The notes beneath the pieces are model-generated. The model did not search any database, was not told the DNA's origin, and saw only the letters and a list, made by a program, of their open reading frames with translations. The translations under genes were made by a program, and so were the position numbers. DNA of 64,000 nt from Deltaproteobacteria bacterium (GTDB taxonomy: Bacteria > Bdellovibrionota > Bdellovibrionia > Bdellovibrionales > Bdellovibrionaceae), in NCBI GenBank assembly GCA_017302835.1, contig JAFLCC010000003.1:1-64000 (forward strand), given 5' to 3'. How positions within the stretch are numbered: position 1 is the stretch's first letter; each line of letters begins with the position of its first letter. Below are positions 4,293-16,645 of this stretch, piece by piece.

Positions 4293-4919
4293 ATGAAATT
4301 ATCTTGTCCTGCTTGTGGTGCAGAAATTGTATTTAAATCTCGGTCTTCAACTTTTGGCGTATGTTCGTTTTGTAACTCGACGCTTGTCAGGCACGATAAG
4401 GATATCGAAAGCTTGGGTAAAATGAGTGAAATGCCACAGGACCTGAGTCCTTTGAAACTCGGAACGACAGGTGTTTTTGAAAAATCAAATTTTGAGATTG
4501 TCGGTCGTCAGCGAATTGGTTGGGAAAATGGGGCTTGGAATGAATGGTACCTGCATTTTGATAATGGCAAAGAGGGTTGGCTTGCTGAGGCTCAAGGATT
4601 TTATATGGTGAGTTTTCAAGTTTTTGAAAAAATAAAAATTCCCGATTTGTCGAGTTTAAAGGTGGCTGAGCCAATTCGAATTCATGAAATAAATTTTGCT
4701 GTAGAGGATATTCGTGAAGTTGCCTGCATTGCAAGTCAAGGCGAATTGCCATTGCTGAGTATTCAAGGACGAAAATCAACAAGCGTTGATCTGGTTGGAA
4801 AAAATGAACAGTTTGCCAATATTGATTATTCATCAGATGGAAATCGATTATTTTTTGGAAAGTATATTGATTTTGATAATTTAAAATTCATGAACTTAAG
4901 GGAACTTAGTGGCTGGTGA
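4293..4919 (+). CDS. Zinc-ribbon DUF4178 protein
   Basis: A 208-residue soluble protein and the first gene of a seven-gene operon. Residues 1-32 form a zinc ribbon with two CxxC knuckles (CPACG and CSFCN). Residues about 55-200 match the DUF4178 pattern: FEIVGRQRIGW, an NEWYLHFDNG segment and GWLAEAQGF. DUF4178 proteins are known to be encoded beside DUF350 membrane proteins and spermidine-synthase-like enzymes, as here; their biochemical role is not established. There are no membrane segments. The ATG has no Shine-Dalgarno but coincides with the predicted transcription start. The stop overlaps the next gene by 11 bases, indicating translational coupling. Confidence 0.85.
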   Translation: MKLSCPACGAEIVFKSRSSTFGVCSFCNSTLVRHDKDIESLGKMSEMPQDLSPLKLGTTGVFEKSNFEIVGRQRIGWENGAWNEWYLHFDNGKEGWLAEAQGFYMVSFQVFEKIKIPDLSSLKVAEPIRIHEINFAVEDIREVACIASQGELPLLSIQGRKSTSVDLVGKNEQFANIDYSSDGNRLFFGKYIDFDNLKFMNLRELSGW

Positions 4920-6255
4920 GGAATTGAAACCTAATATTGAGCCCAAGCCAGCCGTCGTGAAGGTATTTAATTGTCCCTCTTGCGGTGCAGGTGTCGTGCT
5001 CCGGGCAGCGGGCCAATCGGTTACGGCGGTCTGTAGTTCTTGTGCAGCGATTATTGATTCTTCAAGCGAAAATTATAAAGTCATCGAAAAAACTTCAAAA
5101 AAAGGTATTAGAGATCAGATCATTCCACTGGGGCAAAGAGGAAAACTTCGAGGAGTTTTGTGGGAAGTTATTGGTTATGTTGAAAGATCTGACGTTTCCT
5201 CAGATTATACTTGGAGTGAGTATTTACTTTTCAATCCTATGAAGGGATTTCGTTGGCTTACTGAATTTGATGGTCATTGGAATTATGTTATCACCACAAA
5301 ATCTCAACCAGAAGTTGATTCCACCGTTGAAAATAGACAGCTAGCAAAACTTTACAACAAACGCTATCAGTTATTTCATAAGGGCTTAGCTAAGGTTATT
5401 TATGTTATTGGTGAATTTTATTGGCAAGTAAAGCAAGGTGAGGAGGTAGAGGTTGAAGACTACGTTTCTCCCCCAGAGATTTTATCATCAGAAAAAAGCA
5501 GCAATGAAATTGTTTGGTCTCTTGGAGAGTATCTTGATGCGAACGAGATCAAATCTGCGTTTCAAATAATGGTGTCGATGCCACTTCAATCCGGAGTCGC
5601 TCCAAATCAGCCATCAACAGTAATTGAGACGTCAAAATATACCAGCAAATACTGGGGAATTTTTTTAGGTATCCTCATGTTGATTCAATTTGGATCAATG
5701 GTTCTTTCAAAAAATAAAACGGTCTATTCTGGTCAATTCACATACAGTTCAACGGATACTGAAAAATTAAAAGTGACACCTCCTTTTGAGTTAAGTCAAA
5801 GAATGTCAAATCTGGAAGTAACCTTTTCAGCGCCAGTACAAAATAATTGGATTGAGATACAGGGTGATTTGGTGAATGATGAAAATGGTGAAACCGAAGA
5901 ATTTGAGCAGGGAGTGGAATACTATTCTGGCTACGACAGTGATGGCTCCTGGAGTGAGGGGAGCCAGAGTTCATCATTGATTTTATCTTCAGTGCCAGCT
6001 GGAAAATACCATTTTAATATAGGAATAAATTCAACAAATGGCATTTCTAAAATCCCACTAAATGTTATTGTAAAACAAGATGTCATCACTTGGTCGAATT
6101 TTCTTTTGGCTGTAATTCTTATTTCTTTCTTTCCGTTCTTTACCTTTTGGCGAAATCGGAGTTTTGAAATGAACCGATGGGCCCAGAGTGACTTTTCTCC
6201 CTACTATCAAAATAAATGGGGAAACTACATTCAAAATAGCGAGGATGACCAGTGA
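4909..6255 (+). CDS. Membrane-anchored zinc-ribbon DUF4178 protein
   Basis: A 448-residue paralogue of the upstream gene. An N-terminal zinc ribbon (CPSCG at about residue 22, CSSCA at about 42) and a DUF4178 domain (LRGVLWEVIGYVERSD, then GFRWLTEFDGHW) occupy the first 230 residues. A transmembrane helix at about 248-267 follows, then an Asp/Glu/Ser-rich, probably beta-sandwich domain to about 395, and a second helix (FLLAVILISFFPFFTFW). The topology suggests cytoplasmic ends and an extracytoplasmic middle domain. The start is a GTG overlapping the previous stop, with AAGGGA eight bases upstream. Compared with the first gene, it adds a membrane sensor or anchor to the same zinc-ribbon/DUF4178 unit. 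Confidence 0.85.
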   Translation: MAGEELKPNIEPKPAVVKVFNCPSCGAGVVLRAAGQSVTAVCSSCAAIIDSSSENYKVIEKTSKKGIRDQIIPLGQRGKLRGVLWEVIGYVERSDVSSDYTWSEYLLFNPMKGFRWLTEFDGHWNYVITTKSQPEVDSTVENRQLAKLYNKRYQLFHKGLAKVIYVIGEFYWQVKQGEEVEVEDYVSPPEILSSEKSSNEIVWSLGEYLDANEIKSAFQIMVSMPLQSGVAPNQPSTVIETSKYTSKYWGIFLGILMLIQFGSMVLSKNKTVYSGQFTYSSTDTEKLKVTPPFELSQRMSNLEVTFSAPVQNNWIEIQGDLVNDENGETEEFEQGVEYYSGYDSDGSWSEGSQSSSLILSSVPAGKYHFNIGINSTNGISKIPLNVIVKQDVITWSNFLLAVILISFFPFFTFWRNRSFEMNRWAQSDFSPYYQNKWGNYIQNSEDDQ

Positions 6256-6389
6256 AATTTTTTTTTATTGTTTATGGGACAGGAATCTGTTTGTTTTTTT
6301 CCTATGCTACTTATTCAGGCTGGACCGTGGTTGATTCCATAAAGTCTGGCAAATGGGGTCCACGTGGACATAACGTATATCATAAATAA
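6252..6389 (+). CDS. Small 45-residue membrane peptide
   Basis: A GTG at 6252-6254 overlaps the TGA of the preceding gene (GTGA) and opens a 45-codon frame ending in TAA at 6387-6389. The peptide has a hydrophobic N-terminal helix (FFFIVYGTGICLFFSYATY) and a short polar tail ending GPRGHNVYHK, so it is either a single-pass membrane peptide or an exported one. It fills the otherwise empty gap before the DUF350 gene, in the same direction, 15 bases before that start. Small size, codon-level continuity and stop/start overlap argue for a real gene, but no family is recognised. Confidence 0.6.
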   Translation: MKFFFIVYGTGICLFFSYATYSGWTVVDSIKSGKWGPRGHNVYHK

Positions 6390-6404
6390 TTACAGGAGGA
6401 TTAA

Positions 6405-6635
6405 ATGGTTGAACCATTACAGCAACTCATCAACATCAAATATATTGTCGCGGCACTTGTTTTCTCAGCTATTGGGATTTTTGTTTTGTCAGTTTCCTTT
6501 GTCCTTTTTGACAAACTAACCCCAGGAAATCTTTGGAAGGAAATTGTTGAAGAGCACAATATCGCTTTGGCAATCGTAACGGCGGCAATGACTCTTGCAA
6601 TCGCACAGATTATTGCCGCTGCTATTCATAGTTAG
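6405..6635 (+). CDS. DUF350 family membrane protein
   Basis: A 76-residue protein with two transmembrane helices (about residues 12-34 and 50-74) separated by a short loop, FDKLTPGNLWKEIVEEHN. The size and this loop, followed by an Ala/Ile-rich second helix, match DUF350 (the E. coli YjfL family), where two units usually form a four-helix protein. Here there is only one unit, so dimerisation is likely. A strong AGGAGG lies six bases before the ATG, the best ribosome-binding site in the operon. DUF350 genes are repeatedly found with DUF4178 and aminopropyltransferase genes in other bacteria. Confidence 0.85.
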   Translation: MVEPLQQLINIKYIVAALVFSAIGIFVLSVSFVLFDKLTPGNLWKEIVEEHNIALAIVTAAMTLAIAQIIAAAIHS

Positions 6636-6645
6636 ATTTTAAGCC

Positions 6646-8142
6646 ATGTCTTATTTGCTACTATTCTCTGTTTTTGTTATTGCCACTTGTGGTCTGGTCT
6701 ATGAGCTCATAGCTGGCGCCCTGGCTTCCTATTTGCTTGGTGATTCTGTCACTCAGTTTTCTACCATCATAGGAGTCTATCTTTTTTCAATGGGGATTGG
6801 CTCGTTTTTATCTAAGTATATTGATAAGAACCTTATTGGAAAATTTGTACAAGTAGAATTATTGATAGGAGTTGTAGGTGGATTTTCGGGGGCAATTCTG
6901 TTTATATCTTTTGAGTACATCACGTCGTTCAGAATTTTACTCTACGGGATGGTGTCGATAACGGGAATTCTCGTTGGCTTCGAAATTCCTATTCTTATGA
7001 GAATCATGCAAGCTCATTTTGAATTCAAAGACCTTGTATCCAAAGTTTTCACTTTTGATTATGTGGGAGCCCTTTTAGCCTCTCTACTTTTTCCACTTTA
7101 TTTAGTACCTCATCTTGGTCTTGTAAGGTCAGCATTTTTGTTCGGCATATTTAATATTTTGGTGGCGATTTGGACACTTTATCTTTTTAAAGACGAAATT
7201 CCATGGGTGCGACTTCTCAAAGGTTCAGCCTTGATAGCGCTCATCAGCTTGGTGCTTGGATTTATCTATTCTGAGCGTATTGTTAGTTTTTCTGAGGCGG
7301 CAAGTTATCAAGACAAAGTCATCTACTCAAAGACTTCTAGGTATCAAAGAATTGTATTAACAAAGTCCGATGATGATTTTCGATTGTTCTTAAATGGCAA
7401 TCTTCAGTTTAGCTCAAAAGATGAGTATCGGTATCATGAGGCTTTAGTTCATATGGGGCTTGCTTCTTTGCCCGAGCCTAAAAAAGTATTGGTCCTTGGT
7501 GGAGGTGATGGCCTGGCGGTTAGGGAAATTTTAAAATACCCTTCCGTTGAAGAAATTAGTTTGGTTGATTTAGACGCAGAGATGACCGACTTGTTTAAGA
7601 GGAATGAGGCGCTTACAAAGTTAAATCTCAACTCTATTAATTCTCCGAAAGTGAAAGTCATTAATGACGACGCCTTTGTTTGGTTAAAAAATAACACGCA
7701 AAAATTTGACTTCATTGCTGTCGACTTTCCAGATCCCAGTAACTTTTCGGTGGGTAAACTTTACACTAATTCATTTTATAGACTTTTAAAGTCAGCGCTG
7801 TCTGATTTTGGAGTTGGAGTGATTCAAAGCACTTCGCCTTATGTAGCTAAAAAATCATTTTGGTGTGTCGACAACACTCTTAAGTCAGTTGGATTTAAAA
7901 CAACACCTTATCATGTGTATGTTCCTGCCTTCGGTGATTGGGGTTATATACTGATTTCAAATCATGAGTTTAAGATGCCAGATAAATTTCCGGAAGATCT
8001 TAGGTTTTTAAATTTGGAGGTAGCAAAGACTCTTTTGATTTTTCCTCAGGATATGGTTGCGGTTTCACATGATATAAATAAGCTCAATAATCAAATCTTA
8101 GTTCGGTATTTCGAAGAGGAATGGGCCAGTTATGCCCACTAA
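6646..8142 (+). CDS. Membrane-bound aminopropyltransferase-like enzyme
   Basis: A 498-residue protein in two parts. Residues 1-210 contain about six to seven transmembrane helices. Residues about 225-480 form a spermidine-synthase-type catalytic domain. The nucleotide-binding loop VLVLGGGDGLAVREIL, the acidic residues after it (ISLVDLDAEM), NDDAFVWL and the substrate-site motif VDFPDPSN are all present, so decarboxylated AdoMet binding and aminopropyl transfer are plausible. The acceptor is unknown. It starts 10 bases after the DUF350 gene. No AdoMet decarboxylase gene lies in the window, so the donor must come from elsewhere, or the reaction may differ from spermidine synthesis. Confidence 0.85.
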   Translation: MSYLLLFSVFVIATCGLVYELIAGALASYLLGDSVTQFSTIIGVYLFSMGIGSFLSKYIDKNLIGKFVQVELLIGVVGGFSGAILFISFEYITSFRILLYGMVSITGILVGFEIPILMRIMQAHFEFKDLVSKVFTFDYVGALLASLLFPLYLVPHLGLVRSAFLFGIFNILVAIWTLYLFKDEIPWVRLLKGSALIALISLVLGFIYSERIVSFSEAASYQDKVIYSKTSRYQRIVLTKSDDDFRLFLNGNLQFSSKDEYRYHEALVHMGLASLPEPKKVLVLGGGDGLAVREILKYPSVEEISLVDLDAEMTDLFKRNEALTKLNLNSINSPKVKVINDDAFVWLKNNTQKFDFIAVDFPDPSNFSVGKLYTNSFYRLLKSALSDFGVGVIQSTSPYVAKKSFWCVDNTLKSVGFKTTPYHVYVPAFGDWGYILISNHEFKMPDKFPEDLRFLNLEVAKTLLIFPQDMVAVSHDINKLNNQILVRYFEEEWASYAH

Positions 8143-9790
8143 ATTTTATGACCTATCTGGAAGTGGTGCGCTAAGAAGCGCGAGAAACCTTTCGCGAAGA
8201 AACTTTATCAAGGTGATGGGTTTCAGTTTGACAACGATGATAACTGGTTTTTGGAGTTATTTTCGTTTTTTTAAATCGAATAAGTATTTTTTTTCAGGTT
8301 CCTTAGTAGGGGCAAATTCAAAAACTGGACATCTTTTACAGTCAGGAGTGAAAGCCATCCCAACAGAAACGAAGACTCTGGATACGGTGATTGTGGGTGG
8401 TGGTATCTCGGGGTTATCAGCTGCTTGGTGGTTTAAAAAGAACAACTTTAAAGACTTCGTTCTTTTTGAAATGGATTCCGATGTTGGTGGGAATTCAATG
8501 AGTGGTTCGAATTCGATTAGTAAATATCCTTGGGGAGCCCATTATGTGCCTTTGCCTGGGCCAGAGGCGCATTATGTTCGCGAGTTTTTTGAGGAGATAG
8601 GAATTATTCAGGGATATCAGAAAGGTCTTCCTATTTTTAATGAGTATTATTTATGCTCGGATGCTCAGGAGCGATTGTTTTTTCAAGGCGAGTGGCAGGA
8701 GGGTCTTGTTCCTCAACATGGAATTCAACACGATGATAAAAGGCAGTATGATGAGTTTTTTACTTTTATCGAGTCCTTGAAAAAGAAAAAAGGGGTTGAT
8801 AAAAAATATGTTTTTAGCATTCCTTTAGATTCGAGTTCTCAAGATCCTGAATATTTAAAGTTAGATCTCATTTCCATGTCTGAATTCATGAGAGAGAAAG
8901 GTTGGAATTCTTCCTATCTTAATTGGTATGTGAATTATTGTTGTCGTGATGACTATGGAAGGCCTCACAACAAAGTTTCAGCTTGGGCGGGCCTTCATTA
9001 TTTTGCCTCCCGTGCAGGAGTTGGGGCAAATGCAGACGCTCAATCTGTTTTGACTTGGCCTGAGGGGAATGGGTTTTTAGTTTCAAAATTTAAAGAAATT
9101 ATTGGTGATCACATTCGAAGAAACTCCCTGGTGTTTTCTATCGAGTGTTTGTCACAGGGCTACTCCGTTGATGTTTTGAATACTCAGGATAATTCTTGTA
9201 CGCGTTATTTTGTCAAGAATGTTATTTTTTGTGGGCCACGATTTACTGCAAATAAAATAATTAAAGATTATTCAAGTGATAGAACTCTTGAATATGCTCC
9301 ATGGGCGATAGCCAATATGACTATAAAAGAATTTCCGTTGTCCCAAGGGGCGCCGTTGTCGTGGGATAATGTCAGCTTTTATAGTAAGTCCTTGGGATAC
9401 ATCGTAGCAAATCACCAGGATTTAAAATTTAATCGCAAAGAAAAGGTCATTACCTATTATTTGCCTCTTGATGAAAAACCGCCAAAAGAAGAGCGGATAG
9501 CCGCCTATCAAAAAAGCTACCAAGACTGGTTAGATATAATTATTCCTGATCTTGAAAAAATGCATCCAGGAATTTCAAGGACTGTTTTAAACGTGGATGT
9601 TTGGATTTGGGGACACGGAATGGTGAGTCCTGGAATTAACTATTTATGGAGCCCAAAAAGAAAAGATTTTTTGAAGCCTTTTAAAGGAATTGAATTCGCT
9701 CATTCTGATATGAGTGGTATTTCCATCTTCGAAGAGGCCCAGTACCGAGGGGTTGAAGCTGCAAAAAGAATTTTAAGCAAGCTCATTTGA
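8132..9790 (+). CDS. Tat-exported FAD-dependent oxidoreductase
   Basis: A 552-residue flavoprotein. SRRNFIK at residues 21-27, followed by a hydrophobic stretch, is a textbook twin-arginine signal, so the folded FAD enzyme should be exported to the periplasm or stay anchored there. The dinucleotide fold begins at about residue 84 with TVIVGGGISGLSA, followed by an acidic residue (LFEMD) and a GGNS segment typical of the amine oxidase/phytoene desaturase superfamily. The C-terminal GIEFAHSDMSG is the usual FAD-closing motif. The ATG overlaps the upstream stop by 11 bases. Beside two aminopropyltransferase-like genes, an amine-type substrate is a reasonable inference, but no substrate residues prove it. 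Confidence 0.85.
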   Translation: MPTKFYDLSGSGALRSARNLSRRNFIKVMGFSLTTMITGFWSYFRFFKSNKYFFSGSLVGANSKTGHLLQSGVKAIPTETKTLDTVIVGGGISGLSAAWWFKKNNFKDFVLFEMDSDVGGNSMSGSNSISKYPWGAHYVPLPGPEAHYVREFFEEIGIIQGYQKGLPIFNEYYLCSDAQERLFFQGEWQEGLVPQHGIQHDDKRQYDEFFTFIESLKKKKGVDKKYVFSIPLDSSSQDPEYLKLDLISMSEFMREKGWNSSYLNWYVNYCCRDDYGRPHNKVSAWAGLHYFASRAGVGANADAQSVLTWPEGNGFLVSKFKEIIGDHIRRNSLVFSIECLSQGYSVDVLNTQDNSCTRYFVKNVIFCGPRFTANKIIKDYSSDRTLEYAPWAIANMTIKEFPLSQGAPLSWDNVSFYSKSLGYIVANHQDLKFNRKEKVITYYLPLDEKPPKEERIAAYQKSYQDWLDIIIPDLEKMHPGISRTVLNVDVWIWGHGMVSPGINYLWSPKRKDFLKPFKGIEFAHSDMSGISIFEEAQYRGVEAAKRILSKLI

Positions 9791-9846
9791 GCAGCGAGTT
9801 CAGAACTGGTGGCTTATTTCAAAAAACTCTGATAAAACTATCCATA

Positions 9847-12120
9847 ATGATTAGATTTCAAAATTCATTTTATTGGAAAGCGATTTTTTTTCTCTCGGGG
9901 TGCTCGTCTTTAATTTATCAAGTTACTTTTACTAAGTTTTTCATTCCTGTAATGGGTTTGAGTTTACCTGCCATGACTGTTGTTGTGAGTTCTTTTTTTA
10001 GCGGAATGGCCATCGGGAGTTTGTTGGTACCTAGGTTGATAAAATGGAATAGGTGTACCCCCATTTTCTATGCACTTATAGAAATAGCCATTGGATTACT
10101 ATCTGTATTAGTTGTTTATGCAAAACCCTTGTTGTTTAGTCTTTATAGGCTCTATTCCGATGATATATTTGCAAGTACTTATCAAGTTTTTTTTCAGTTT
10201 TTATTATCATTCTTATTTCTTTTGCCATCAACATTGATGATGGGGCTTTCTTTTCCTATATGTACAGAGTTATTCTCTATGAAATATAAAAATAATATCA
10301 AAGCGAATAAGATAGGCATTGCCTATTTTTTACATTTACTGGGGGCCTCAGTAGGGTGTTTCCTATGTGGGTTTTATTTAATTGAAAACTTAGGATTAAA
10401 AAATACTTTTTTCTTTACGGCGGGAATAAATATTTTAACGGCTGTATTAATATTATTTCATTTCCAAAAATCAAAGATCTCGTTGCCGCAAAAAAGTGTC
10501 ATTTCGAATGGTAGGTCCAACAAGCTGCTATTTTTTTATTTTTTCCTCGGTGTGTTGGTCATGTCCGTCGAAGTTGTTTGGTTCCGCCTTTTTGTTTTTT
10601 ATATCGGTGGAGCTGTTTATTCATTTTCTATAATTTTAACGGTTATATTATTAGGGAATGCCATAGGAAGTTATTTGTTCGGTGAGGTTTTTACTAAAGT
10701 GTTTAGACGTTGGCGTTGGAAAAACTATGAAATAGCTTCCCTTTTGACGGCCAAATTAGCTCTCTTTATTTTAATTTCATTTTATTTTTTAACCTCGATT
10801 GATTTTAAATTGTTGGGAAAACTCTTTCCTTATTCAAGTGACTTAGTATTAAGTTTTGTTTTTAGTTGTTTTCTTGTTGTTCCTTGTACCATTTTTCTTG
10901 GAGGAATATTTGCTTTTCTTAATCGGGAACTCGAAGAGGGCGGTTTATCTATGGGTGAGTCTTCGGGATTACTTTTTGCTGTAAATAGCTTTGGTTCAGT
11001 TGTGGGAACGATTTTGACGACATTTTTTCTTTTGGATTATTTAGGATTGCAAAAAATAGTCATTTACATGTCCTTGGGAATTTTTCTATTAAGTTTTATG
11101 TTGAGCTATAATTCTTCTGTTTCGATAAGAAGAATAAAAATAGTTCAATTTTTATTCTTAGTAGGAGTTATTTTACTTATTCCCCACAATGTGATTCAAA
11201 GTATTTTTTCTAAACAACTAGGGGAATTGGTTTTTTATAAAGAGACGGCAAGGGATATTGTTGCAGTTCATAAATTTCGTCAGACAGAAGATTTACGGCT
11301 GGCATTTAATGATGGACGCGGAACCTGTGGCACAATACCCCAAGAGAATGAAGTGGCAAGACTGTTGGCACATTCTTCAATGGCCATGAATCCACGAGCG
11401 AAAGATATTTTGGTAATTAGTTTTGGATGTGGTAATACGGCAAGTGCTTTTGCCGTTCATCCCATTATTTCATTAGATATCGTGGATGTGAGTCAGTCAG
11501 TTCGTGAAGCTGCACCTTTTTTTTGGACAAACAAAAATGTCATTAACGATGCTCGATTAAAATTTTATGTGGAAGACGGAAGAAACTTTCTTTTAAGAAC
11601 TAAAAAGAAATACGATATCATTCAACTAGAGTTGCCAAATTTATTGATGGACGGAACCGTTTTTTTATACACAAAAGAATTTTATCAATTAGTTCGAGAA
11701 AGATTAAAAGACAAGGGTGTTATCTCGCAATGGATTAACGCTGCTAAAACTGGACGGGACGCCTCATTATCGCTCATTCATACCCTAGCAAATGAGTTTC
11801 CAAATGCCATTTTGTTTGAACGGCATTGGGCTTGGTGGGTGAATGCCACTCTGAATGAAAATCAAGAACTTTTTCCCAGCGAGGGAAAGTTGTATTTTGA
11901 AGAGCCTAAAATACGCAATGATTTATTGAGCATTGGTTCTTCTTACCAAGATATGCATAAGTTCGTATTAGCAAATCGCGATGAAATCGAAAAAATCACC
12001 AAAAATTCACCTTTGGTTACTGATGACCTTACCTTGGTTGATTTCACTGCTTCTAAATTTTGGTCAGAAACAATATTCCACCAGCGACCTCAAAATAAAA
12101 CACCTGGGTTTTTCAAATAG
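9847..12120 (+). CDS. Large membrane aminopropyltransferase-like protein
   Basis: About 757 residues from the ATG at 9847. A TTG at 9787, overlapping the previous stop (TTGA), would add 20 residues; neither start has a clear Shine-Dalgarno. The first 450 residues hold roughly 12 transmembrane helices. The last 280 form a spermidine-synthase-like fold (FNDGRGTCGTIPQENEVARL, then LVISFGCGNTASAF). The AdoMet loop is SFGCGNT rather than the GGGDG of the upstream enzyme, while the later YVEDGRNFL and a Tyr-Asp-Ile-Ile strand are kept. It is probably a fused membrane-transport/aminopropyltransferase protein of the kind annotated as fused spermidine synthase. It ends the operon. Confidence 0.8.
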   Translation: MIRFQNSFYWKAIFFLSGCSSLIYQVTFTKFFIPVMGLSLPAMTVVVSSFFSGMAIGSLLVPRLIKWNRCTPIFYALIEIAIGLLSVLVVYAKPLLFSLYRLYSDDIFASTYQVFFQFLLSFLFLLPSTLMMGLSFPICTELFSMKYKNNIKANKIGIAYFLHLLGASVGCFLCGFYLIENLGLKNTFFFTAGINILTAVLILFHFQKSKISLPQKSVISNGRSNKLLFFYFFLGVLVMSVEVVWFRLFVFYIGGAVYSFSIILTVILLGNAIGSYLFGEVFTKVFRRWRWKNYEIASLLTAKLALFILISFYFLTSIDFKLLGKLFPYSSDLVLSFVFSCFLVVPCTIFLGGIFAFLNRELEEGGLSMGESSGLLFAVNSFGSVVGTILTTFFLLDYLGLQKIVIYMSLGIFLLSFMLSYNSSVSIRRIKIVQFLFLVGVILLIPHNVIQSIFSKQLGELVFYKETARDIVAVHKFRQTEDLRLAFNDGRGTCGTIPQENEVARLLAHSSMAMNPRAKDILVISFGCGNTASAFAVHPIISLDIVDVSQSVREAAPFFWTNKNVINDARLKFYVEDGRNFLLRTKKKYDIIQLELPNLLMDGTVFLYTKEFYQLVRERLKDKGVISQWINAAKTGRDASLSLIHTLANEFPNAILFERHWAWWVNATLNENQELFPSEGKLYFEEPKIRNDLLSIGSSYQDMHKFVLANRDEIEKITKNSPLVTDDLTLVDFTASKFWSETIFHQRPQNKTPGFFK

Positions 12121-12289: not shown

Positions 12290-13123
12290 CTAACCAATTA
12301 ATTTCAAGGCATTTCCAGGTATTTGATTAGCCTGAGCCAATGTAGATACCGAAGCTTGAAGTAAAATATTATTTCTTGTCAACTCGCTGCTTGCCTGAGC
12401 CACATCAGTATCACGAATCCGTGAATTCGCAGCTGATAAATTTTCACGCATGGTTTGAGTGTTATCAAAAGTTGTTTGTAAACGGTTTTGGATGGCACCA
12501 AGGTTCGCTCTGAATCCATTCACCGTAGATTGGGCCTCGTCAAGAACAGAGAGTGACTCTTGAGCTCCCTCTTTTGAAGAAAAATCAAAGCCATCAATAC
12601 CTAAATTGGAAGCGGTAGCATCTGACATACTAGAGTCAAATTTAATCCTATCAGAATCAGGGTCATTGTTGATGCCCACTTGAAACTCATACATTTTGCC
12701 ATTTCCATTGATTAATTCTTGATTTCCAAATTTAGTTGTTTGCGCTATTCTTTGCACTTCTTGTTTTAACTGTTGTACTTCCTTATCAAGTAAGTTTCTT
12801 TCTTTATCTGATACAGAATCAGAAGCCGATTGAATTCCTAGCTCTCTCATTCTTGTGAGAATATTTGATATTTCACCAAGACCACCTTCAGCTGTTTGAA
12901 TTAAGGAAATGCCATCATTAGAATTCCTTCCAGCTTGGTCGATACTTCGGATATTTGATTTTAAGTTTTCACTTATCGCCAACCCTGCGGCATCATCTGA
13001 TGACTTCGTAATTCTGGATCCCGAAGCTAACTGAGTAAATGACTTTTGTATCTCTCTTTGCGAGTTTGTCATCGACTTTTGAGCGCTTAAAGACGCTACG
13101 TTTGTTGAAATTCTCATTCCCAT
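12290..13123 (-). CDS. fliC: Flagellin
   Basis: A 277-residue flagellin with complete, conserved N- and C-terminal D0/D1 regions: RISTNVASLSAQK, a GSRITKSSDDAAGLAISE core, MRELGIQSASD, and a C-terminus ending LAQANQIPGNALKLIG. The variable centre is very short, so the filament subunit is a minimal flagellin, as in Bdellovibrio. AGGAGG lies seven bases before the ATG. It is the furthest downstream of three flagellin genes on this strand, each with its own ribosome-binding site and a spacer of 0.5 kb or more, so each is probably transcribed separately. No chaperone or cap gene is present. Confidence 0.93.
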   Translation of the reverse strand: MGMRISTNVASLSAQKSMTNSQREIQKSFTQLASGSRITKSSDDAAGLAISENLKSNIRSIDQAGRNSNDGISLIQTAEGGLGEISNILTRMRELGIQSASDSVSDKERNLLDKEVQQLKQEVQRIAQTTKFGNQELINGNGKMYEFQVGINNDPDSDRIKFDSSMSDATASNLGIDGFDFSSKEGAQESLSVLDEAQSTVNGFRANLGAIQNRLQTTFDNTQTMRENLSAANSRIRDTDVAQASSELTRNNILLQASVSTLAQANQIPGNALKLIG

Positions 13124-14828: not shown

Positions 14829-15597
14829 ATGAGAAAAGATGATGCCCGACAATTGGATCACAAGACTCTTGAAGAATTACGAATCAGATCCATCAAGCGA
14901 GGTCATGCTGGAGAAAGTCCAGAAGCGATTTCAAAAGCTCTCGGTCCCAACCGATCAACAATTTATACTTGGCTTGCACTTTATCGCGATGGTGGTTGGA
15001 GCGCTTTGAAGTCGAGGCCGACGCCGGATGCAAAGCCAAGAATTGATGGTAAGAAAATGGTTGATGGAAATTTATCCAAAGATAAAGAGTCGCTCCAAGA
15101 TCGAGAAAGCGGATATATATTTTGACGATACAGCTCACATTAAGTCGGATCATCATGCCGGAAAAACCTGGGGAATTAAAGGCGATACTCCAGTCGTAGT
15201 TAGTAGTGGTGCTCGGATTTCTTTTTCATTGATCTCGGTAATATCATCGCGGGGCTTGATGAGATTTATGGTGCGTGAAGGTGGAGTCAACTCAGCAGTT
15301 TTTATAGAATTTTTGAAAAGGCTAATTGCTGGAGCGAAAAGAAAAATATTTCTAATTGTTGATGGTGGATTTGCTCACTAATCAAAGGTTACAAAAGGAT
15401 TTGTTGAATCAGTAAAGTCACAGTTGGAAATATTTTTTCTGCCACCTTACTCGCCAGATCAAAACTCTGACGAACTTGTTTGGAATCACTTGAAAACTCA
15501 TACTGTTGGCAGGTCAACTGTGGTTGATAAAATTGACTATAAAAAGAAGGTCACAAAGTCCATGAAATCGCTTCAAAAAAATAAAAGAAAAGTTTGA
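14829..15597 (+). pseudogene. IS630-family transposase, frameshifted and deleted
   Basis: The first part (14829 to about 15060) encodes the helix-turn-helix N-terminus (ESPEAISKALGPNRSTIYTW, then LKSRPTPDAKPRIDG). The second part, in another frame from about 15028, encodes the DDE catalytic domain: ADIYFDDTAHIKSD (first Asp), FLIVDGGFAH (second Asp), then after an in-frame TAA at 15379-15381, PYSPDQNSDELVWNHLK (Glu). Compared with intact family members, the stretch between the helix-turn-helix and the first catalytic Asp is missing roughly 60-80 residues. An internal deletion that changed the frame, plus a nonsense mutation, inactivate it. Confidence 0.85.
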
Positions 15598-15817: not shown

Positions 15818-16645
15818 TTATCCAATCAGTTTCAATGCAATACTAGGGAACTGATTGGCCTGTGCGAGTACCGACACGGCAGCACTTTGTAAAACTTGAG
15901 CTGAAGCTAGTTCTGAGGATTCCTTTGCGACATCTGTATCTGAAATTCTGGATCTAGCTGCTGATAAATTTTCGATTTGCGTGTCTAAATTTGCTGTTGT
16001 TGTTTCAAGTCTATTTTGAATCGCTCCAAAATTGGCGCGCATTTCTCCGACCTTTTGCATGGCCCCGTCGACTACATTTAATAAGTCTTTTGCGGAGTCT
16101 TTATCTGCTAAGGACAATCCATCAATGCCAATTTCTGAAGCGGTTGCATTTGATGATAAATCAAAAGTGATCGTGTTTTCTTCTCCTCCGTTGGGTCCAA
16201 CATGATAAGTTTGTTTTCCCCCAGAGCCATCAAGAAGTTTCTTGTCTCCAAAAGTGGTAGTTCTTGCAATCCTGTCGGCTTCTTCGATTATGTTTTTTGC
16301 TTCTAAATCTAAAAAAGACCTCTCTTTTTCACCGACATTGTCTGAAGCTGCTTGAATGCCCAGCTCTCTGAGTCTTACTAAGATATTGCTGACTTCATTC
16401 AGTCCGCCTTCTGAGACTTGAATGGCACTTACGGCATTGAAAGAATTGGTTCTTGCCATTTGCATTCCTCGTACTTGTGCCCGCATGGATTCAGAGATCG
16501 CGAGTCCTGCGGCATCATCACCAGCTTTAACGATTCTAGAACCTCCAGCTAATGCTTGGGAAGCATGTTCAGCTCGGACTTGTTGTTTAGACAAGACCTT
16601 TTGTGCCGAAATCGACGCCATGTTTGTTTGTATTCTTAAGCCCAT
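15818..16645 (-). CDS. fliC: Flagellin, second copy
   Basis: A 275-residue flagellin with intact conserved ends: RIQTNMASISAQKVLSKQQ, KAGDDAAGLAISESMRAQ, LRELGIQAASDN, and a C-terminus LAQANQFPSIALKLIG. The central variable region is minimal, ending in a GPNGGEENTITF stretch. AAGGAGG lies five bases before the ATG. The transcript leader contains a 60-base two-part hairpin (16667-16726) a short distance before the ribosome-binding site. The protein clearly shares ancestry with the flagellin at 12290 but differs along much of its length, so the genes are paralogues rather than a recent duplication. Confidence 0.93.
   Translation of the reverse strand: MGLRIQTNMASISAQKVLSKQQVRAEHASQALAGGSRIVKAGDDAAGLAISESMRAQVRGMQMARTNSFNAVSAIQVSEGGLNEVSNILVRLRELGIQAASDNVGEKERSFLDLEAKNIIEEADRIARTTTFGDKKLLDGSGGKQTYHVGPNGGEENTITFDLSSNATASEIGIDGLSLADKDSAKDLLNVVDGAMQKVGEMRANFGAIQNRLETTTANLDTQIENLSAARSRISDTDVAKESSELASAQVLQSAAVSVLAQANQFPSIALKLIG

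Follow-up and report, generated by a model that had tools for sequence, protein, structure and literature searches.

Gene content of the operon

The window, by which we mean the whole stretch of 64,000 nucleotides analysed, contains an operon of seven open reading frames, all on the plus strand and each either overlapping its neighbour or lying at most 16 nt from it. Open reading frames and Pfam matches bore out the positions and families given by a first-pass annotation, which had described seven genes on one strand, nearly all of them overlapping or adjacent. The operon begins with two genes for DUF4178 proteins. Protein a (4293..4919, +; Pfam PF13785, 44 bits) combines an N-terminal zinc ribbon with a DUF4178 domain and is predicted to be soluble; in the neighbourhoods of relatives it is conserved as gene 1 or 2 of the cluster. 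Protein b (4909..6255, +; PF13785, 84 bits) has a zinc ribbon and a DUF4178 domain as well, and two membrane helices flanking a beta-rich domain. They are followed by p45 (6252..6389, +), a single-TM peptide of 45 residues with a GTG start and the C-terminal sequence GHNVYHK, and by a short DUF350 gene (6405..6635, +) whose product, a two-helix membrane protein of 76 residues, was assigned by Pfam PF03994 (51 bits) and alignment.

The remaining three genes encode larger proteins. SpeE1 (6646..8142, +; Pfam Spermine_synth, 150 bits; NF002956) consists of a 7-TM domain (residues 1-207) and an aminopropyltransferase domain (about residues 220-498). The fold of the following flavoprotein (8132..9790, +), a predicted Tat-exported FAD oxidoreductase, is of the amine-oxidase type, as assigned by an FAD-type Rossmann domain in Pfam (NAD_binding_8), an alignment and a structural model. 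SpeE2 (9787..12120, +; Spermine_synth, 53 bits; NF037959) has about 13 TM helices and a degenerate SpeE-like domain; its start is uncertain, being either the TTG at 9787, which overlaps the flavoprotein stop, or the ATG at 9847. Pfam detected no ATP-grasp ligase domain in any of the seven genes.

Scans for regulatory signals gave no excess of promoters over shuffled sequence (28 sites versus 24.1) and a weak excess of terminator-like sites (11 versus 6.1), none of the latter lying close to the operon end. Just 3' of the operon are two flagellin-like genes (window 12290-13123 and 15818-16645, both on the minus strand). Between them lies a transposase-like sequence (window 14829-15597, +), a winged helix and then DDE-type residues, whose coding is broken up over several frames; it probably represents an IS630-type element in decay.

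Conservation of the cluster across phyla

Six of the seven genes form a conserved cluster that occurs in at least six phyla. A search with the flavoprotein returned 19 loci, which belong to Bdellovibrionota, Bacteroidota, FCPU426, Gammaproteobacteria and Acidobacteriota (Terriglobia). Where the contigs extend far enough, most of these loci have the gene order SpeD or band-7-SHOCT, DUF4178a, DUF4178b, small peptide, DUF350, SpeE1, flavoprotein, and a membrane protein of approximately 370 residues. A DUF4178 survey, with neighbourhoods annotated by profiles built in this analysis, counted 23 of 291 genomes in the phylum of the window, 23/349 in the phylum of locus L020 and 15/345 in that of L012. 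Absence of a conserved neighbourhood in relatives had been named beforehand as an outcome that would speak against the first-pass reading; the comparison of gene order found the neighbourhood conserved. Since this holds across phyla, a flavoprotein for export and two DUF4178 genes are the norm and belong to the standard core of the cluster. They had been regarded as its less expected parts, and we rejected the idea that they are odd additions.

Peculiar to this genome is instead the last gene, SpeE2, which stands in place of the gene for the 370-residue membrane protein found in relatives. Moreover, band-7-SHOCT and SpeD, which close relatives carry in the operon, are located elsewhere in the genome. 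SpeD is present only as a SpeD-SpeE fusion away from the operon, and band-7-SHOCT (L023, G000:C2:99110-100099), also away from it, adjoins a TelA-like gene. On an Alteromonas plasmid, one operon (L174) has genes for DUF4178, DUF350, SpeD and SpeE together with a toxic anion resistance gene of the TelA type.

The membrane protein that follows the flavoprotein in relatives (e.g. L003:11602-12717) matched no Pfam family and no PDB sequence. Its invariant His, Glu, Asp and Tyr residues lie in the motifs HVYST, HFxRQQYGF, WH, HGxPY, EEGxW and THYxLDGxIW, and from these it looks like an uncharacterised metal-dependent membrane enzyme. A search of the present genome, run without a positive control, gave no match to its gene.

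Features of SpeE1, SpeE2 and the flavoprotein

SpeE1 scored 669 bits against the model for membrane polyamine aminopropyltransferases of the PRK03612 type (NF002956; cut-off 472). The motifs for dcAdoMet binding and catalysis (GGGDG, VDLD, NxDA, DxxDP) are present, D288, D310, D342, D360 and D363 are conserved in 64/64 homologues, and the canonical residues on the acceptor side (D360, D363, Y263, Q394, W432) are retained. In the structural model seven TM helices precede an aminopropyltransferase domain that superimposes on the Thermus aminopropyltransferase 1uir with Z 33. Lysine plus arginine averaged 9.5 in loops 2, 4 and 6 versus 1.8 in loops 1, 3 and 5; the even loops are also longer, yet relative to their length they remain about two to ten times richer in K+R. 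This bias had the same direction in all 64 sequences. Given seven TM helices and a positive-inside charge bias without exception, the catalytic domain of SpeE1 is predicted to face the periplasm. The cytoplasmic transfer branch assumed in the first-pass annotation is thus at odds with the predicted topology.

SpeE2 belongs to the fused MFS/spermidine synthases (MFS_SpdSyn, NF037959; 101 bits versus a cut-off of 40), and its charge pattern resembles that of SpeE1 over most of its length. At the positions of SpeE1 D288, D310, D360 and D363 it has C, S, E and N. Its description as aminopropyltransferase-like therefore stands for the fold and fails for the enzyme, the catalytic acids being replaced, and for the same reason we discarded the reading of SpeE2 as another active aminopropyltransferase. 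Because some 13 helices and this charge pattern are combined with a degenerate domain, a role in transport or as a scaffold is more likely for SpeE2 than activity as an enzyme of the aminopropyltransferase class.

The Tat motif of the flavoprotein, S-R-R-N-F-I-K (residues 21-27; 8192..8212, +), was examined in an alignment of 17 homologues. R22, the first arginine of the motif, is invariant and F25 nearly so; the second arginine, or a lysine in its place, is found in nearly all, and a hydrophobic segment follows. In the Bacteroidota proteins this segment is followed by a cysteine, which suggests that they are lipoproteins. The structural model (pLDDT 83.6) matched putrescine oxidase (Z 28) and monoamine oxidases (Z 26-28) best, with protoporphyrinogen oxidases (Z 26) and spermidine dehydrogenase close behind. 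Matches to amine oxidases extended over about 415-450 residues (Z 25-28) at about 16% identity, so that the likeness is one of fold, which by itself does not fix the substrate. The Tat motif together with the best matches supports the exported oxidation step that had been suggested from the sequence of the operon.

Lysine-ended tails and a proposed modification

No role had been assigned to p45, which we regard as the leading candidate for the target of these enzymes. It is a real gene, with homologues in many phyla, some of them missing from the lists of open reading frames and recovered by checking the gaps by hand. Its dN/dS versus the two nearest relatives was about 0.15-0.17, in keeping with purifying selection on the peptide. 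In the alignment the homologues vary in length and sequence, yet end in -HK; the corresponding codons of p45 lie at 6381..6386 (+).

The C-terminal lysine extends beyond p45. Each of the 73 loci in which a tail was identified has one membrane-anchored or exported protein with lysine at its extreme C-terminus, directly before the stop codon (73/73 recorded tails, a count that is not blind for operons without flavoprotein, where tails had been sought as Lys-ended open reading frames). By comparison, a terminal lysine is present in 8/355 of the other proteins encoded in these operons. Because some tails had been sought by their lysine, open reading frames with a hydrophobic segment upstream of SpeE1 were also scanned unguided: lysine stood last in 41/59 loci, and each other residue did so in 5/59 or fewer. 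Once the rule had been formed, five plasmid-borne loci were fetched, all of which fit it; a sixth fits on the strand that was initially left out.

The lysine is invariant in all tail architectures. It is carried by a 1-TM peptide, by a lipoprotein or by a DUF4178 protein that has the tail fused to it; in some relatives the fusion partner is protein b. Operons without the flavoprotein have tails such as FAFGRIK, FGRVK, GLRGGK or similar, and in the PspA-type operons of Bacteroidota the tail is the end of a lipoprotein (e.g. GGFGK). At loci lacking a separate peptide, a Gly/Ser-rich tail (e.g. GGYTSGGSHK) is fused behind the membrane helix of the DUF4178 protein, a fusion that arose several times. 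On the SpeE1 tree the tail switched architecture at least six times, and the lysine was kept throughout. No such tail was found in the few cases without SpeE1, either beside flavoprotein genes (L018, L076) or beside DUF4178 plus DUF350 (L127); as far as these few loci allow a comparison, the tail appears to go with SpeE1.

The penultimate histidine appears to go with the flavoprotein. Tails end in HK or HGK in 49/49 operons with the flavoprotein versus 1/22 without it (Fisher's test, p about 4e-17). On the SpeE1 tree this comes down to two changes that agree and one that does not: flavoprotein and histidine were gained on the same branch and lost together in L165, and they disagree in L148, which has an HK tail without flavoprotein. 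As the tree leaves few independent changes, the association is only suggestive.

Charges flanking the membrane segment of p45 give no clear topology for the peptide itself. The lipoprotein tails and those fused behind the zinc-ribbon protein are predicted to lie in the periplasm, as is the catalytic domain of SpeE1; transferase domain, tail and flavoprotein would then share one side of the membrane. That a residue with a primary amine stays at the tip of a flexible tail through every change of carrier, in operons whose core enzyme aminopropylates amines, makes the tail lysine in our view the most likely acceptor and suggests that it is what the enzymes act upon. On these grounds we tentatively propose, at somewhat less than even chances, that the operon encodes a periplasmic system which modifies its own membrane peptide at the lysine-ended tail, with SpeE1 aminopropylating the lysine and the flavoprotein oxidising the product. 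The general idea of an envelope-linked amine as the target, put forward in the first-pass annotation, is upheld by this reading.

The proposed steps would be as follows. dcAdoMet would be made in the cytoplasm, in this genome by the SpeD-SpeE fusion and in many relatives by the SpeD of the operon, and would reach the periplasm via the membrane part of SpeE1, via DUF350 or via both. There the SpeE1 domain would move the aminopropyl group onto the C-terminal lysine of p45, and the Tat-exported flavin amine oxidase could then oxidise the modified -HK tail to an aldehyde capable of cross-linking or signalling. The DUF4178 zinc-ribbon proteins may be located at the cytoplasmic face and serve there as a sensor or a scaffold. 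Delivery of the donor is the weakest step, as it calls for a transporter that is only postulated, and we know of no precedent for periplasmic dcAdoMet.

An alternative that we consider unlikely is that, at the membrane, SpeE1 transfers the aminopropyl group to a lipid or to a small free amine and the flavoprotein oxidises the product, the Lys-tailed peptide being an accessory subunit. It would agree with the canonical acceptor-side residues retained by SpeE1, with putrescine oxidase as the closest fold of the flavoprotein, and with Ravi et al. 2024 (PMC11237479), who allow for polyamines or other substrates. However, it does not account for a variable tail that always ends in lysine while moving between unrelated carriers. 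Equally improbable, in our judgement, is that the tail is a ligand or gate, its terminal lysine filling the acceptor pocket of SpeE1 (or of the flavoprotein) and thereby controlling activity, assembly or localisation. Invariant C-terminal residues are often recognition elements, so the lysine could be a recognition signal instead of a target, and Gly/Ser-rich linkers would suit a tail reaching into a pocket. Against this, the catalytic residues of SpeE1 are fully conserved and some substrate must therefore exist, while the operons encode no other Lys-ended or amine candidate. Least probable of all is a cytoplasmic catalytic domain that draws on cytoplasmic dcAdoMet and acts either on the tail prior to its export or on an amine in the cytoplasm: dcAdoMet belongs to cytoplasmic metabolism, and the peptide-spermidine ligases of E. 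coli, being ATP-dependent, are presumably cytoplasmic too, but the seven helices and the 64/64 positive-inside signal of SpeE1 oppose it, and SpeE2, with about 13 helices and a like charge pattern, also points outward.

Modification of the tail lysine in the periplasm, if true, would constitute a new post-translational modification; it would mean that dcAdoMet is used beyond the cytoplasm, and would tie polyamine-type chemistry to envelope stress systems. A literature search on DUF4178 and DUF350 turned up one relevant paper, and one on aminopropylation together with C-terminal lysine returned no match. Operons with membrane SpeE, DUF350 and DUF4178 occur widely and, although known for years, have had no substrate assigned to them; the C-terminal lysine, invariant whatever its carrier in all such operons examined, provides a specific residue to test.

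Several known systems share components with the operon. Flavin amine oxidases (putrescine oxidase, MAO, spermidine dehydrogenase) have the fold of the flavoprotein, which differs from them by its predicted Tat export and by invariant motifs of its own (WYxxYxxxDDxG, SAWAGxHYFAxR, SGISIFEEA). MFS-SpdSyn fusions, in work attributed to Li et al. in 2019, were reportedly linked to AdoMetDC and DUF350 and proposed to use an acceptor other than putrescine, none being named. Those systems likewise bring AdoMet decarboxylase together with a SpeE fused to a membrane part; for the present operon we propose a substrate, its own Lys-ended tail. E. coli YjfC and YgiC are annotated as peptide-spermidine ligases, an activity traced to Pederick et al. 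2023 in passages of PMC12270671 and PMC12568646. Both adjoin DUF1190 proteins, and YjfC also adjoins DUF350. YjfM (L167:8388-9026) and YgiB (L168:3-416), encoded beside the ligases, have Gly-rich tails with a terminal GG. The yjfJKLMC and ygiBC operons thus resemble that of the window in setting a Gly-rich-tailed protein, in yjf next to DUF350, beside a peptide-polyamine enzyme, and we take them as a precedent that favours the proposed modification; they differ in having an ATP-grasp ligase and GG tails where the window has an aminopropyltransferase and K tails. A parallel is possible, by analogy, between amide ligation to a C-terminal carboxylate and aminopropylation of an amine.

The closest counterparts are the PspA/band-7-linked operons of Ravi et al. 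2024 (PMC11237479), which contain a 7TM-spermidine synthase, DUF350, DUF4178, lipoproteins, AdoMet decarboxylase and polyamine oxidase, and for which the authors suggest that polyamines are monitored or that other substrates are aminopropylated. Their gene families are those of the window, including variants with band-7-SHOCT, AdoMet decarboxylase and polyamine oxidase; compared with the band-7-SHOCT variant, the window operon is without band-7 and SpeD, and SpeE2 replaces the 370-residue protein. The main text of that study does not use the word lysine, so that a C-terminal Lys tail is no part of what it reports. Related operons, polyamine oxidase included, have hence already been described, and what the present analysis adds to them is the lysine-ended tail.
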